A model generated the notes under the pieces. The model was not told the origin of the DNA. It saw nothing but the letters and a program-made list of their open reading frames with translations, and searched no databases. 64,000 bases of DNA from Arthrobacter silviterrae (GTDB lineage Bacteria > Actinomycetota > Actinomycetes > Actinomycetales > Micrococcaceae), in contig NZ_JAAKZI010000008.1 in NCBI RefSeq assembly GCF_011045165.1, positions 1 to 64,000 on the forward strand, given 5' to 3'. Each line of letters starts with the position of its first letter. Within the stretch, counting starts at the first letter, position 1. This document shows, piece by piece, positions 4,631 through 11,400 of this stretch. Position numbers and translations under genes: made by a program.

Positions 4631-5383
4631 TCAAAGGACCTTGGCCAGAAAGTCCTGCAGGCGCGGCTGCTGGGCGTTGCCGAAGATGGCCTCCGGGGTG
4701 CCTTCCTCGCAGATCACGCCGGCGTCCATGAAGATGACCCTGTCGGCAACCTCGCGGGCAAAGCCCATCTCGTGCGTGACAACCACCATGGTCATGCCCT
4801 CGGCCGCGAGGTCGCGGATCACCTGGAGCACTTCACCCACCATTTCGGGGTCAAGGGCGCTGGTTGCCTCATCGAAGAGCATGATGCCGGGATTCATTGC
4901 CAGCGCCCGGGCAATGGCCACGCGCTGCTTCTGGCCGCCGGAGAGCGACGCCGGGCGGGCATCGGCCTTCTCAGACAGGCCTACACGCTTCAACAGTTCC
5001 ATGCCCTTGGCACGGGCGCCGGCCCTGTCGAGCTTCTTCAGTTCGACAGGGGCCAGCATGATGTTTTGGATGACGCTCATGTGCGGGAAAAGATTGAAGT
5101 GCTGGAAGACCATGCCGATGTGCTGGCGGACGGCGTTGAGGTCCACCTTGGGGTCCGTGAGGTCGTAGCCGTCCACCGTGACCGTGCCGCCCGTGATGTC
5201 CTCAAGCTTGTTCAGGCAACGCAGGAACGTGGACTTGCCGGAGCCCGAGGGGCCAATGACACAGACCACCTCGCCCTCGGCAATGTCAACCTCAAGGCCC
5301 TTGAGGACCTCATTGGAGCCAAAGGACTTCTTCAAGTTCCGGACGCTGATCTTGGCGCCCGCTGCTGCTGGGGTGGCTGTCAT
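4631..5383 (-). CDS. glnQ: Polar amino acid ABC transporter ATPase
   Basis: The 250-aa ATPase powers an uptake transporter of the glutamate/glutamine/polar amino acid class. Walker A is GPSGSGKST (44-52), the Q-loop is VFQHFNLFP (92-100), the signature is LSGGQ (147-151) and Walker B ends in FDEATSALD (170-178). Its ATG overlaps the stop of the upstream binding-protein/permease gene by four bases (ATGA), so the two are cotranslated. Substrate is inferred from the subfamily: GlnQ/ArtP-like sequences and the nitrogen genes around it. A terminator follows immediately. Confidence 0.93.
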
Positions 5384-6903
5384 TTGTTGAACTTCCTGTC
5401 CAGGGCGTTGGAAAGCTGGGTCAAGATGAAGATGACGATGAAATACAGGGCCGCCACGATCAGCAGCGTCTCACCGGTGCGGAAGTTGGATGCGTAAATC
5501 TGCTGGCCCTGGTAGGTCAGTTCCGCGAAGCCGATGACGGCGAGCAGGGACGTGTCCTTCAACGTGATCACGAACTGGTTGATGAACGACGGCGTCATGA
5601 TCTTGACAGCCTGCGGCACCACCACGCGGCGCATGGAGGTGACGTAGCCCAGCCCCAGGCTGCGGCTGGCCTCCAGCTGGCCAGGGTCCACGGACTGGAT
5701 GCCGCCGCGGACGATCTCGGTCATGTAGGCACCGGCGTTCAGGCTCAGTGTGATGACACCGGCCGTGAGCACGTCCAGCGGCCGGCCCGTGAGCTGGGGC
5801 AGGCCGAAGTAGAAGAAGAACGCCTGAACCAGCAGTGGGGTGCCGCGGAAGATTTCAACATAGATGCTGGCAATGATGCGAAGCACGCGGCTTTCGGAGA
5901 CCTTCAGGAAGCCAAACACAATGCCAAGCACCAGGGCAATGATCAGCGAAAGTGCCGTGGCCAGCAGCGTCATGCCGAGGCCCTTCATCAACGCCGGGAA
6001 GCTGTTCGCGAGCAGTTCGAAGAAGCTTGTCTGCTTGGCGGTCTCGGGTGCAGCCAGGTACTTGTCGAGAATTTTTTGGTACTGGCCGCTGGCTTTAAGG
6101 TTCGCCAGGCCGGCGTCGAAGGCCGCGAGGAGATCGGCATTCTGGCCCTTGTTCACGGCAAAGCCGTAGGAGCTGCCCTGTTCCTTGGGCGTGACAATCT
6201 TCAGGCCGTTGTTTTGGCTGACGCCGTAGGCCAGCACGGGGTAGTCGTCAAAAACCGCCACGGAGTTCCCGGCCTTGACGTCGTCGTACATGGTCGCGGA
6301 ATCAGCCAGTGCCTTGACAGTGAAGCCGTATTTGTCCTTGATGGAGTTGGCAAACGTTTCGCCTTCACTGCCGCGCTTGACGGCAACCGTTTTGCCTTTC
6401 AGGTCCGCATAGGTCTTGATGGCATCGTTGCTCTTGGCCACGGCCATCTGCACGCCGGAATCGAAGTACGGGTTGGAGAAATCAAAGATGAGCTTGCGCT
6501 TGTCCGTGATGGACATGCCGGCAATGACGCCCTGGACCTGGTTCGACTGCAGGGCCTGCAGGGCGGCGTCGAAGCCAAGGGACTTGATGTCGACCTTGAA
6601 GCCCTGATTGTCGGCGATGGCGCGCAACAGGTCCATGTCGATGCCGACCAGGTCGCCGCTGCCGTTGCGGAACTCAAAGGGGGCAAAGGTGGTGTCTGTG
6701 GCAATGGCAAAGGTCTTGCCCTTGGCATCACTGGCTGCTGCCGGCGCCACTGCCCCCACTGCCGCCGGCGCGAGGCCCTGGTGCAGGGCTGCGGGCATGA
6801 CGGCGGCCGAGGCCGAACCGGCACCGAGCAAGAGCGCCATGACGGTCAGGGTTGCGCCCAGCGCCGCCCGGCCCCGTCTGGTGGCCAATCGGTATATGTT
6901 CAA
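5380..6903 (-). CDS. Fused substrate-binding protein and permease of the amino acid ABC transporter
   Basis: One 507-aa polypeptide carries two transporter parts. Residues 1-35 form a signal sequence with an Ala-rich end. About 55-275 form a periplasmic-binding-type domain ([14 protein letters not shown] start, [24 protein letters not shown]). About 290-505 form the permease with several membrane helices and the EAA loop around [11 protein letters not shown], which contacts the ATPase. Fused binding protein/permeases occur in Gram-positive GlnP-type systems. The TTG start at 6903 is inferred from the position of the signal peptide. Longer upstream reading has no signal and poor codon context. 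It overlaps glnQ by ATGA. Confidence 0.9.
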
Positions 6904-7057
6904 GGTCTTCCAACCATCCTTAATTTTTTGTCTGCGGCTCCCGCGCCTGCGGCGACCGCACCCCTGACGGGTCCAGCTGCGCCCGGCTTTGGGCGCAGCA
7001 AAGGCCATCACCGGATGCGCCGGCCGGAAGGCAGCGCAGGTGACAAAGGTAGAGTCT

Positions 7058-7111
7058 ATGCGTATCTCGGGTTGCGGGGTGGATTGCAGCCATTGCGGCA
7101 CCCCTGAATGA
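7058..7111 (+). other. Possible 17-codon ORF with three-cysteine tail
   Basis: ATG at 7058 opens MRISGCGVDCSHCGTPE and ends at TGA. AAAGG lies 8 bases upstream. There is no plus-strand gene downstream, so it is not an obvious leader. The tail C-x3-C-x2-C-x2-P-E resembles the tail of the minus-strand ORF at 7157-7366. It may be chance. Confidence 0.2.
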
Positions 7112-7156
7112 GTCCCCAGGGCCGCGCACACGGCGACGGCACTGAGGCACCCGGAG

Positions 7157-7366
7157 TCAGTCGGTTTCAGGGCCCCAGCAGTAGGGGCACTGGTCATCGC
7201 ACAAGGCATCGGCGGGGAGTTGCTCCGCCGCCGGCTGGGCCATGAAGGTTTCCGGCTGTGGCGCCGGCTCCACGATGGCAGTCCCGGACTGGTCCCTGCC
7301 CTGGCGCAGGCCAGCGGATCCGTTCACGCCAACGCGGCTGGGGCGGGAAGCTAATGTATGTGACAC
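7157..7366 (-). CDS. Small hypothetical protein with C-terminal CxxxCxxC motif
   Basis: A 69-aa reading frame starts at GTG with AAAGGAGA eight bases upstream, a near-ideal ribosome site. Codon third positions are mostly G or C, as in its neighbours. The N-terminal 50 residues are polar and Pro/Ala/Gln-rich without a membrane segment. The end, ALCDDQCPYCWGPETD, packs three cysteines in a C-x3-C-x2-C spacing. I do not recognise the family. The motif could bind a metal or be modified. It lies alone between the ABC operon and a palindromic intergenic region. Confidence that it is a gene is moderate. Confidence 0.5.
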   Translation of the reverse strand: MSHTLASRPSRVGVNGSAGLRQGRDQSGTAIVEPAPQPETFMAQPAAEQLPADALCDDQCPYCWGPETD

Positions 7367-7714
7367 TGCGGGGTCTCCTTTGACTCCGGGCAGGGCGCCC
7401 AGCCCCTTCGGACCGTGGCGGACACCCTGTGGTGCGGGCAACTGCATGAACTTGTCATTGGATCGAGGCCCCCGGTGGATTACCACCAGGGCAGCCCCGT
7501 GGCCAATTTCCCGTGGAGTCGAGCGGCGATGGGACGGCTTATGAGGTCAAGTCAACTTTTCGGTGCCGTTGGTGTGCGGCGCCTGCTTCCCAGCTTAGTG
7601 TGATGTGCAGCGCAGGGGCTTAGGTCAATGGACAAGAATTAAGCTGCAAAATTGTGCTCAGTGACAATGGCCACCCAACGGGAAAGGCCCCGCCCCGGCT
7701 GACTTTGCACAGCG
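7367..7714. other. Intergenic stretch without recognised genes
   Basis: Apart from the ribosome-binding site of the small ORF at its left edge, I see no convincing gene, RNA or repeat here. Short frames on both strands lack ribosome sites. Confidence 0.5.
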
Positions 7715-7746
7715 AAATGGCCGGCCATGGATGTGGCCGGCCATTT
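7715..7746 (-). terminator. Terminator after the GLWIWP repeat gene
   Basis: A perfect 13-bp stem (AAATGGCCGGCCA / TGGCCGGCCATTT) with a 6-nt loop has A/T ends on both sides and can act in either direction. It lies 55 bases after the stop of the repeat gene. Confidence 0.8.
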
Positions 7747-7800
7747 GTATGGCACCGCAGTGGGGGAAGGCGGCCCCTTCGCCGTTCCGGGCTGTTGTCG

Positions 7801-8298
7801 CTACGCTTTTCCGATCGTCGTGGCACCGGTCGAGAAAGGCCAAATCCAGAGCCCGGCAGGAGTAGCCTGCGCGGAGTGAACCGCGTTCGGCCAAATCCAG
7901 AGCCCGGCCGGAGTAGCCTGCGCGGACTGGACAGCATTCGGCCAAATCCACAGCCCGGCCGGCGAGACCTGCGCGGAGCGAACAGCGTTCGGCCAAATCC
8001 ACAGCCCGGCCGGCGAGACCTGCGCGGACTGGACAGCGTTTGGCCAAATCCAGAGCCCTGCCGGCGAGACCTGCGCGGACTGGACAGCGTTTGGCCAAAT
8101 CCAGAGCCCTGCCGGCGAGACCTGCGCGGCCGGCGCCTGCGAGGCTTCCTGGGCATTGGGCCAAATCCACAAGCCTTGCGGTGCCGGTGCGGCAGCGGCG
8201 GCCCCCAGGCCGAGGAACATGGCAAAAGCGGTGAAGAGGGCGCCGAGCCCGGCAATCAGGCCCGTTCTACGGCGTCTTTGCGTGTGTTGGTTCTGCAT
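7801..8298 (-). CDS. Secreted tandem-repeat protein with seven GLWIWP units
   Basis: The 165-aa product begins with a textbook export signal: a basic RRRR stretch, a hydrophobic helix (13-32) and an Ala-rich cleavage region (33-38). The rest is repeats. GLWIWP occurs at residues 42, 64, 81, 98, 115, 132 and 149; from the second copy on, the spacing is exactly 17 aa (51 bp). Six copies continue with Asn-Ala; the last continues Phe-Ser. Linkers vary (VQSAQVSPA, VRSAQVSPA, VHSAQATPA), while the core never does, although Gly, Leu and Pro codons in it change synonymously. No enzyme domain is present. GGGGGGAA precedes the ATG and a strong terminator follows. The function is unknown; a repeated peptide precursor or a surface/structural protein are options. 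Confidence 0.85.
   Translation of the reverse strand: MQNQHTQRRRRTGLIAGLGALFTAFAMFLGLGAAAAAPAPQGLWIWPNAQEASQAPAAQVSPAGLWIWPNAVQSAQVSPAGLWIWPNAVQSAQVSPAGLWIWPNAVRSAQVSPAGLWIWPNAVQSAQATPAGLWIWPNAVHSAQATPAGLWIWPFSTGATTIGKA
7837..8175 (-). repeat. 51-bp tandem repeat array inside the GLWIWP gene
   Basis: Five exact-period 51-bp units (8109 down to 7855) plus a terminal partial unit code for the WIWP repeats. A diverged first unit (8110-8175) is 66 bp long. Units differ by point changes, many of them silent. Confidence 0.9.
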
Positions 8299-8487
8299 GA
8301 TGAAATTCCCCCCGGGAGGTCAGGACAGCAGCAGTTTCAGGTCCCAAAAACTGCAGTGAGACAGTGCGTGGATTCCATAACAAATCCCAGGACCTAGCAC
8401 CAGTTCTTCCAGTCTTGCCCCAGTGGGGTGCCAAAGTCCACTGTTTCACGCCACAAATGTTGCAAACATGCACGCGGCGGCTGCTGT

Positions 8488-11400
8488 TTACCCGTAGAAC
8501 AGCCGTTCAAACACTGCCCGTGCCTTGCGGGTCAGCCCCAGGTAATCCTCTTCGAACGCTGCGGCCTGCCCGGGTTCGTAGCCGCACCAGCGCGCCACCG
8601 CTTCCAGATCCCGCCGGGCCGAAGGAAGCAGGTCCGAGGGCTTCCCCGTCCAGATGACATTGGCGTTGCGGACCTTGCCCGCCAGCCGCCAGGCGGCCTC
8701 AAGCAGTTCAGCGTCGCCTTCCCCGACAAGGTCAAGGCCGCGCGCGGCGTGCAATGCCGCCAAGGTTGAGGTGGTGCGAAGCCCCGCGTGGAGGTGCGCG
8801 TGTTTGAGCTGCCACAACTGGACAAGCCATTCCACGTCGCTCAGCCCGCCGCGGCCCAACTTTACGTGCCGTGCCGGGTCGGCCCCGCGGGGCAGCCTCT
8901 CCGACTCCATGCGGGCCTTGATCCGCTTGATCTCGCGCTGGTCGGCTTCGGCCAGCACAGCCGGATACCGCACGGGATCGGCCATCGCCACAAACTCCGC
9001 GGCCAGTCCGTCGAATCCGGCCATGGGCAGTGCCCTCAGCAAGGCCTGCGCCTCCCATGCAGAGGACCACCGGGAATAGTATTCGCGGTACGCGTCGAGG
9101 GACCGGACCAGGGGGCCGTTTTTCCCCTCCGGCCGGAGATCGGCGTCAATGCTGAGCACACGTTCGGCCTGGATTGCCGGCTTGAGAGGCTGGGTCAGCA
9201 GGGACATCACCTTGGACACAATGGCTTTCGCCTGCTGCTGCGCAGGCCCTTCAACGGCGGCGCCGGCCGTTCCCGGCACAAGTTGCTGGACAAACAGGAC
9301 GTCGGCGTCGGAACCGTAGCCGATCTCTCGCCCGCCCTGGCGGCCCATGGCCACCACCAGCACATGGACCAGTGGCGGCTCCCCGGCATAGACGTCCGCC
9401 TCGGCCACCATCAACGCGCCCAGGACCGTGGCCCGGTCCACGTCGCTCAGGGCAGCCGACACCTGGTCCTGGGCAAGGAGCCCGGAACAGTCGGCTATGG
9501 CAATGCGCAGGATTTCCCGCTGGCGGTTGAGCCGGATCAGCCGGATCGCGCCAGCCGGCTCGGGGTGGCGGGACATCTTGGACTGGATTTCCGCCCACTG
9601 TGCCGCAAACGTCAAGGGAACCAGTTCCTTGTCGTTGCCAAACCAGGCGGTGGCCTCCGGCGAAACCTCCAGCAGGTCGGTCACCAGCCGGGAGCTGGAG
9701 AGAACGTGGCACAGCCGCTCGGCCGCGGCCTGGTGGTCGCGCAGCATGCCCAGGTACCAGTGGGAGGTGCCCAGGGCCTCACTGACTCGGCGGAAGGCGA
9801 GCAGCCCGGCGTCCGGGTCGACGCCGTCGGCCAGCCAGCCAAGGAGCACGGGCAGCAGCTGGCGCTGCAGGGCCGCCCTCCGGCTGACCCCGGCGGTCAG
9901 GGCTTCAATGTGGCGCTGGGCACCGGCCGTGTCCCGGTAGCCAAGCGCGGCCAGCCTGGCCCTGGCAGCATCCGTGGTCAGTGCCACGTCGTCGGCACTG
10001 AGATGGGCGGCAGTGACAAGTATGGGCCGGTAGAAAATTCGTTCGTGCAGGGCCCTGACCTCGCGCTTGACGCGGCCCCAGTCCTCCAGCAGCGTTTCGG
10101 CCGTGGGGCGCTTGAGGCTGAGGGGGCCCGCCGCCGCACGGGCCAGGGCCCGCAGCTGTTCCGGGGCCCGCGGCATGAGATGGGTGCGGCGCATGTGGAC
10201 AAGCTGGATCCGGTGTTCCAGGACGCGAAGGTAGCGGTAGGACTGGTCCAGGTGGGCGGCATCGGTGCGGCCAATGTAGCCGGCGCGCATGAGTGCGTCG
10301 ATGGCGGCAGTGGTGGCCTTGACCCTGATCGATTCGTCATTCTTGGCATGGACCAGCTGCAGGAGCTGCACCGTGAATTCCACGTCCCGCAGGCCGCCCT
10401 TGCCCAGCTTGAGCTGCCTCCCGGCCTCCGAGTCGCGGATGTTTGCCGTGACGCGCCGGCGCATGGCCTGAACGGAGGCTACAAAGCCCTCCCGTTCCGA
10501 CGACGTCCAGATCAGCGGCGACACGGCCTGCTCAAAGCGGAGCCCCAGCGCACGGTCGCCTGCAATGGCCCGCGCCTTCAAGAGCGCCTGGAACTCCCAG
10601 TCATGCGCCCAGCGCTGGTAATAGCTGAGGAAGGACTCCAGCGTGCGCACCAACGGCCCGTCCTTGCCCTCGGGGCGCAGGTTGGCATCGACCTCCCACA
10701 GCCCGGGCTCGCGTTCCGGGGCGTAAATGGCCTGGGCCGCCGCTGATGCCAAGGCATTGCCCACGGCGACGGCGCGGGACTCATCCAGCCCGCCGCCGTC
10801 GGCCTCCATGACGTACATGACGTCGACGTCGGAAATGTAGTTCAGCTCCCGGGCACCGCACTTGCCCATGCCGATGACGGCCAGCTTGACGGCAGCCACC
10901 TCATCGAAGGAAAACTGGCCCGCCACCTCGGCCCGGGCCACGGCAAGCGCCGCGTCCAGTGCCGCCGCCGCGAGGTCAGCGAGCTCGGCCCCCACCAGCG
11001 GCATGACGTCCTGGGGCGAGGCCGCGCACAGGTCCCTGATGGCCAGTTCCGCCAGGTGCCGCCGGTAGCGGGTGCGCAGGGCGATCCGCGCCGGTGTGCC
11101 TGTCAACGCCGCTACGGGAATGGCCGACGCCGGTTCCGCACCCACCGCTGCCAGCAGCGAGTCCCGCAGTGCTCCGGCATCGGCTGCCACGGGCTCCGGC
11201 GACGGGAAGGTGTCCAGGACGTCCACGTGTTCGGGATGCCGGATCAGGAACTCCACCAGGGCTTCGGAGGCGCCCAACAGCCGGAAAAGTGCCTCGTTGG
11301 GGACCTGGCGGCCCGTCTCCCGCTCGGGGACGGACAGCTTTCCATACACGGCAGGGACGGCGCTGAGCAGGCGCACCAGCGACTGCACGGCCAGGTCCGG

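Follow-up and report, generated by a model that had tools for sequence, protein, structure and literature searches.

A lineage-restricted secreted protein with tandem WIWP motifs and its probable origin beside a glutamine transporter gene

What is encoded by a gene whose product, past its export signal, consists of tandem copies of a short tryptophan-rich motif, and how could such a gene have arisen? The case considered here lies on the reverse strand at positions 7801..8298 of a 64,000-nucleotide stretch of DNA from Arthrobacter silviterrae (the window, below). An earlier note, made from the letters of the window, described a secreted protein with seven invariant GLWIWP repeats and likened it to multicopy peptide precursors. 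Comparison with related genomes establishes that the gene belongs to a real family, found at one locus in six species.

The window gene and its signals

The frame encodes 165 amino acids from an ATG start and has orthologues at the same locus in five other species. As the earlier note held, it reads as a signal peptide followed by seven GLWIWP copies. The signal peptide, of about 37 residues (8188..8298, reverse strand, like all features of this gene), was recognized and its end placed by eye; it is Arg rich and hydrophobic, with Ala at its end. The array (7801..8169) comprises seven WIWP cores with their linkers and closes in a 15-residue tail as its last unit. Core 1 (TGGATTTGGCC) lies at 8159..8169, and cores 2 to 7 follow at 8093..8103, 8042..8052, 7991..8001, 7940..7950, 7889..7899, and 7838..7848. 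Each matches TGGATHTGGCC, a pattern that occurs seven times in the window, always inside this gene, against 0.16 expected from shuffles; Tandem Repeats Finder gives the array a score of 440. Successive cores are spaced by 66, 51, 51, 51, 51, and 51 nucleotides, the first unit being 22 residues long, so that the 17-residue period previously assigned to the array holds for five of the six intervals and fails for the first. The silent codon variation reported for the cores is borne out: Pro is written CCC once, CCA twice, CCG three times, and also CCT once; Leu as TTG, CTC, or CTG; and Gly, which with Leu precedes every WIWP, as GGC or GGG. Ile is ATT in all seven. Past the signal peptide, Trp accounts for 14 of 128 residues, among which are two Lys/Arg and one Asp/Glu. 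Other long frames across the array (e.g., one of 211 amino acids at 7620-8255) arise from reading these repeats in another frame.

A G-rich stretch resembling a ribosome-binding site (8308..8313) stands nine bases before the ATG, and an inverted repeat about 55 nucleotides past the stop codon (7715..7746) could form a hairpin with a perfect 13-bp stem, a possible terminator or transcript-end structure. All six orthologues have the G-rich stretch, and all six have a long hairpin no more than 130 nucleotides past the stop, of differing sequence and counted without a shuffle control. Consensus scans of positions 7500-8600 returned neither a sigma-70-like promoter nor a terminator, and Rfam has no match anywhere in the window.

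The absence of a named family for this unit, as the earlier note had it, is upheld by the libraries searched. NCBIfam returns no family at an E value of ≤10, the best sequence match in the PDB has an E value of 0.12, and the best Pfam hit, to the eukaryotic family Pcf11_C (PF21936), was rejected, as it reaches 22.8 bits against a cutoff of 26.7 and covers 12 repeat residues. No other domain was found in the WIWP proteins and, by eye, neither a cell wall sorting motif nor a second hydrophobic stretch. Among the papers listed for WIWP, none concerns a protein motif, judging by titles and the beginnings of abstracts, and no paper joins SDTb3-6, the strain of a further match described below, with Arthrobacter; nor did the papers listed for tandem repeats rich in Trp, for precursors with several core peptides, or for the birth of genes in bacteria include a protein of this kind.

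WIWP arrays across species

The homologues differ in copy number, as had been anticipated: there are 7 copies in the window, 8 in G011, 7 in G006, 5 in G022, 4 in G013, and 19 in G005 (labels for genomes and loci are our own), making 50 cores, of which 49 are in the frame of the signal peptide. The common units are WIWPNAVQSAQVSPAGL and its variants in the window, WIWPNAVKADQGTQLVP in G011, WIWPYSAPTTTLAGQ in G006, WIWPYSAQDSTTLAGQ in G022, WIWPYSAKGSTALAGQ in G013, and WIWPYSAPTQAKSQLVP in G005. What is kept across species is WIWP, followed by Asn or Tyr (individual units have His or Phe instead) and then by Ala or Ser. The proposed GLWIWP core thus contracts to its last four residues, since GL gives way to GQ, GP, or VP in other species; the accompanying claim, that the core is kept as linkers diverge, extends with this shorter core to all six arrays. 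The linkers are species specific and rich in Ala, Ser, Thr, Gln, and Pro, the period is 15, 16, or 17 residues depending on the species, the first units are irregular in length, and each unit carries a charge of roughly −1 to +1. Sequence comparison strongly supports the architecture of a putative signal peptide followed by 4 to 19 units, each a WIWP core with a species-specific linker.

One possibility is that the repeats stack into a rigid, beta-solenoid-like fold, in which WIWP strands would present a flat aromatic face to a glycan, ice, or another surface. AlphaFold2, run without an alignment, does draw regular short strands at the array period (16 residues in L057, the further match), with pLDDT values of about 70 to 76 over much of the arrays. 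Averaged over the whole protein, however, pLDDT is only 61.3 (window) and 60.9 (L057), Foldseek finds no match in the PDB at an E value of ≤0.001, and the irregular first units and species-dependent period sit poorly with a regular stack. Further, AlphaFold2 has been reported to produce, for perfect repeats, beta-solenoids that look confident but are unreal (PMC11795689), and we therefore give the strands little weight. The models give no indication of a stable fold, and we consider the rigid arrangement improbable.

Alternatively, the exported chain might be cut outside the cell into WIWP peptides of 15 to 17 residues that act as cell-to-cell signals. The export signal, the repeated near-identical units, and the varying copy number are all consistent with such a precursor, as is the near-invariance within several arrays of the whole unit, beyond the core. 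Moreover, all six chains end in Ala within a shortened last unit, near a unit boundary (G006 being read in its last-unit frame). Yet, judged by eye, the six species share no processing site: GL, GP/VP, or GQ precedes the core, and the mature part of the G022 protein contains no Lys or Arg. In addition, the would-be peptide changes between species at most positions except WIWP, and no protease, receptor, or peptide exporter is encoded among the nine neighbors scanned. With no shared processing site and with whole units, not cores alone, often near-identical, the precursor reading of the earlier note is not supported; we regard it as unlikely, if still a serious candidate.

The core bears signs of constraint. 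When each codon column within the arrays is counted by the fewest changes that explain it, the cores show 5 silent and no replacing changes and the linkers 11 silent and 21 replacing ones (Fisher P = 0.010), with the qualifications that the units were defined by a pattern requiring WIWP, which makes the core counts conditional, that the linker comparison uses only units of the commonest length, that units within one array are not independent, and that G011 contributes 16 of the 21 linker replacements. Of 32 non-stop changes to the WIWP codons, 5 are silent, which gives five silent changes out of five a chance probability of 9e-5, provided that changes are unselected and equally likely. Near-cores retaining three of the four residues are absent from the six ORFs.

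Homogenization is also evident. In G005, 17 of the 19 units (51 nucleotides each) are identical at the DNA level, which points to arrays homogenized or recently expanded within species, and the near-identity of entire units within species indicates that this process has acted recently. The earlier note argued for selection on the peptide over recent duplication alone; intact cores have indeed changed only silently within arrays, but recent homogenization acts as well. A leader segment between the signal peptide and the array, which aligns with the first unit of G011, has no WIWP in G006, G022, G013, and G005; it may be either a unit whose core has decayed or an older state that preceded the core-bearing unit. 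The claim of conservation is therefore limited to cores inside arrays and does not cover every unit ever made. On the two signs that the earlier note named as adverse, a lost core and a broken frame, the evidence is divided: WIWP is present in all six arrays, but the leader lacks it in four of the six species, and in G006 (L039) the sixth unit measures 50 rather than 45 nucleotides, the frame changes, and the seventh core falls out of the signal-peptide frame.

Distribution, locus, and the probable birth of the gene

Of the 23 genus genomes searched, 16 gave some match at an E value of ≤0.01, and the true carriers number six: the window genome (G000), G011, G006, G022, G013, and G005. In eight of the 17 non-carriers (G001, G010, G014, G015, G016, G017, G020, and G021), the signal-peptide part matches glnHP and nothing else. 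Matches in G004 and G019 and second matches in G015, G020, and G021 aligned through the array part without WIWP cores and were set aside. Of five such weak array-part matches, four (L013, L015, L016, and L018) align without cores and were rejected as chance; the fifth, L011 (G019:C1:3432332-3432514), holds an AGPSGVWAHP-type repeat in a frame that contains a stop.

Beyond the genus, we searched overlapping, non-exhaustive samples of the family, order, and class. Among 395 family genomes, 10 matched, namely the six carriers and four genomes with signal-peptide-only matches (G001, G014, G132, and G076), all on glnHP; G132 and G076, the sole ones outside the genus, belong to another genus (g28). 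In the 396 order genomes, the only matches were the window genome and G901, whose frame is broken by four internal stops and which was not counted as a member, and in the 394 class genomes a two-copy pattern matched only the window genome and, once, G582. The G582 match aside, no further member was identified in these three samples. A three-copy W-x-W-P pattern met at least 119 stretches in genome contigs, and those listed were rejected except L057; among the matches listed, 135 loci from the contig and viral scans, only L057 (Arthrobacter sp. SDTb3-6), apparently the G013 contig, reads as a member of the family. Plasmid and phage searches with tblastn gave no match.

In each of the six carriers, glnE and glnHP flank the gene, and glnQ and a glutaminase gene lie beyond. 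The order in the window is glnA, a glyoxalase-like gene, glutaminase, glnQ, glnHP, the WIWP gene, glnE, a second glutamine synthetase gene, and panB. Among the nine neighboring proteins scanned, Pfam identifies glutamine synthetases, glutaminase, ABC transporter components, GlnE, PanB, and the glyoxalase-like protein, and thus, in agreement with the earlier note, no modifying enzyme is encoded alongside. The setting among glutamine-metabolism genes makes nitrogen-dependent expression a conceivable candidate, for which no evidence was found. Two further ORFs occur in this region. A small one (7157-7486, reverse strand), between the WIWP gene and glnHP, has no Pfam match at an E value of ≤1e-5 and ends in CPYCWGPETD or a close variant; ORFs with this type of end are found in six genomes of the genus (the window genome, G006, G022, G013, G011, and G012), although the stretch read in G012 contains neither the WIWP gene nor glnHP. 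A sulfatase-like ORF (named by eye) lies on the opposite strand between glnE and glnHP or glutaminase in relatives (L038, L044, L045, L046, and L240), with none at that position in the window.

The signal peptide offers a clue to how the gene arose. The glnHP gene (5380..7209, reverse strand; true start uncertain) encodes a family-3 solute-binding protein fused to a permease (PF00497 and PF00528). In 13 of the 14 non-carriers whose glnHP region was fetched, GlnHP has a signal peptide of the type MLRxxP..RRRRGG..FAALAAFFTV..MFxGIGGASAL (in the other, G007, only the second half is clear). In the six carriers, this type heads the WIWP protein, and GlnHP starts with a different signal peptide or close variants of it. 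The mean local alignment scores of five of the WIWP signal peptides are 78.4, 86.5, 79.8, 78.4, and 80.9 against non-carrier GlnHP and 59.8, 59.2, 62.2, 52.5, and 59.7 against carrier GlnHP; G005 is the exception, with 50.9 and 54.7, respectively. The two GlnHP types score 52.6 on average against each other. Shuffles are beaten in nearly all cases, even against carrier GlnHP, which indicates that signal peptides resemble one another generally, and the argument accordingly rests on the ranking and the whole-genome matches rather than on the shuffles. The GlnHP of genus g28 (G132 and G076) has the same type as the WIWP protein, which marks that type as the older state. This outgroup likeness, the likeness to non-carrier GlnHP, and the different signal peptide of carrier GlnHP together suggest that the WIWP gene was probably born from the 5′ end of glnHP, the probable donor of its signal peptide. 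The reverse history, in which an ancestral WIWP gene was lost and its signal fused again to glnHP, is disfavored by the g28 state. Duplication of the glnHP 5′ end, with both copies diverging, would leave a pattern indistinguishable from capture. Upstream, the DNA can be aligned near the ribosome-binding site and across the part encoding the signal peptide but not clearly beyond, so that the evidence stops short of promoter capture. A stretch like CTGTAACGTC..GGGGTACTTCATTCG, a possible regulatory site, recurs upstream of non-carrier glnHP (L218-L227 and others) and was not seen upstream of WIWP genes.

In the glnHP tree, five of the six carriers group together (97/91), and G011 pairs with the non-carrier G009 (91/98). 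In the glnE tree, 13 non-carriers form a clade (100/99), and the carriers are unresolved, with G012 lying among them. These trees do not force a single origin; one gain followed by loss in G012, where the glnE, sulfatase, and glutaminase genes remain, would fit. A gene present in only 6 of 23 genomes and missing from the stretch read in such a relative might have little or no function yet: slippage or recombination could have enlarged an array that stood behind a stray signal peptide, and the gene could now be disappearing again; the identical G005 units, the G006 frame change, and the coreless leader in four species agree with this. Against it, the arrays of all six species retain WIWP, with only silent changes inside the cores, as the linkers change, and the ribosome-binding stretch and trailing hairpin accompany every orthologue. 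We therefore hold it to be unlikely.

A multivalent chain at the envelope, and known systems compared

Taking these findings together, we tentatively favor, at somewhat less than even likelihood, a lineage-restricted secreted protein in which a glnHP-derived signal exports a flexible chain that presents Trp motifs multivalently at the envelope. On this view, capture or duplication of the 5′ end of glnHP would have supplied the signal peptide and ribosome-binding site, amplification of a WIWP-coding unit behind them would have built the array, and glnHP would have come to start from another signal peptide. The chain would be exported by Sec and its signal peptide removed, leaving a largely flexible mature part whose many weak, identical indole-rich docking sites might bind an envelope surface, whether wall glycan, a surface protein, or the head-group zone of the lipids. 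Avidity would be set by copy number, and the linkers would be free to drift and be homogenized. Trp favors membrane interfaces and stacking on sugars; this preference, the Trp content, the changeable linkers, and the varying copy number are what lead us to multivalent sites. The regular strands, rather than disorder, that AlphaFold2 draws in the arrays count against a flexible chain.

Among known systems, the atropopeptides share a short Trp-rich core with the WIWP protein and use closely spaced Trp (PMC11450843). By analogy, the arrays could be precursors of ribosomally synthesized and posttranslationally modified peptides (RiPPs), with Trp side chains cross-linked by an enzyme encoded elsewhere. 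However, as described in the same paper, atropopeptides have one core per precursor, a KSLK leader motif, and an adjacent P450, and most show WxxW spacing, unlike the WxW here; the WIWP protein has many cores, a Sec-type signal peptide in place of a leader, and neither a P450 nor a radical-SAM gene among its nine neighbors, and the 165-residue window protein has no KSLK-type motif. We judge cross-linking very improbable.

Short motifs rich in Trp and Pro also recall antimicrobial peptides such as indolicidin, but these are strongly cationic, a charge that neither the near-neutral units nor the mature part of the window protein possesses. The choline- and glucan-binding Trp repeats are likewise secreted tandem repeats of 15 to 20 residues with aromatic cores, but the WIWP protein has no such Pfam match at an E value of ≤10. 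Yeast precursors of the alpha-factor type come close in plan, with an export signal followed by identical cores and variable spacers, but the bacterial protein has no dibasic or otherwise constant processing site. The fuller proposal, that a Sec-exported precursor born by capture of the glutamine transporter's signal peptide releases a lineage-specific WIWP cell-to-cell signal, is rather unlikely in our estimation; if true, it would give Actinobacteria a counterpart of the repeated fungal pheromone precursors.

The nearest relation is GlnHP at the same locus, whose signal peptide in non-carrier relatives and in g28 resembles that of the WIWP protein; past it nothing is shared, and the WIWP protein has neither a solute-binding nor a permease domain. 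What emerges is a family of exported repeat proteins, built on a core of four residues and nameless in the libraries and papers searched. A single locus records its probable birth: some species carry the gene and others lack it, an outgroup genus gives the direction of change, and the transporter gene has changed its signal peptide. In these harmless soil bacteria, it can thus be tested directly how a new bacterial secreted protein arose and whether it serves as a peptide precursor or as a multivalent binder.
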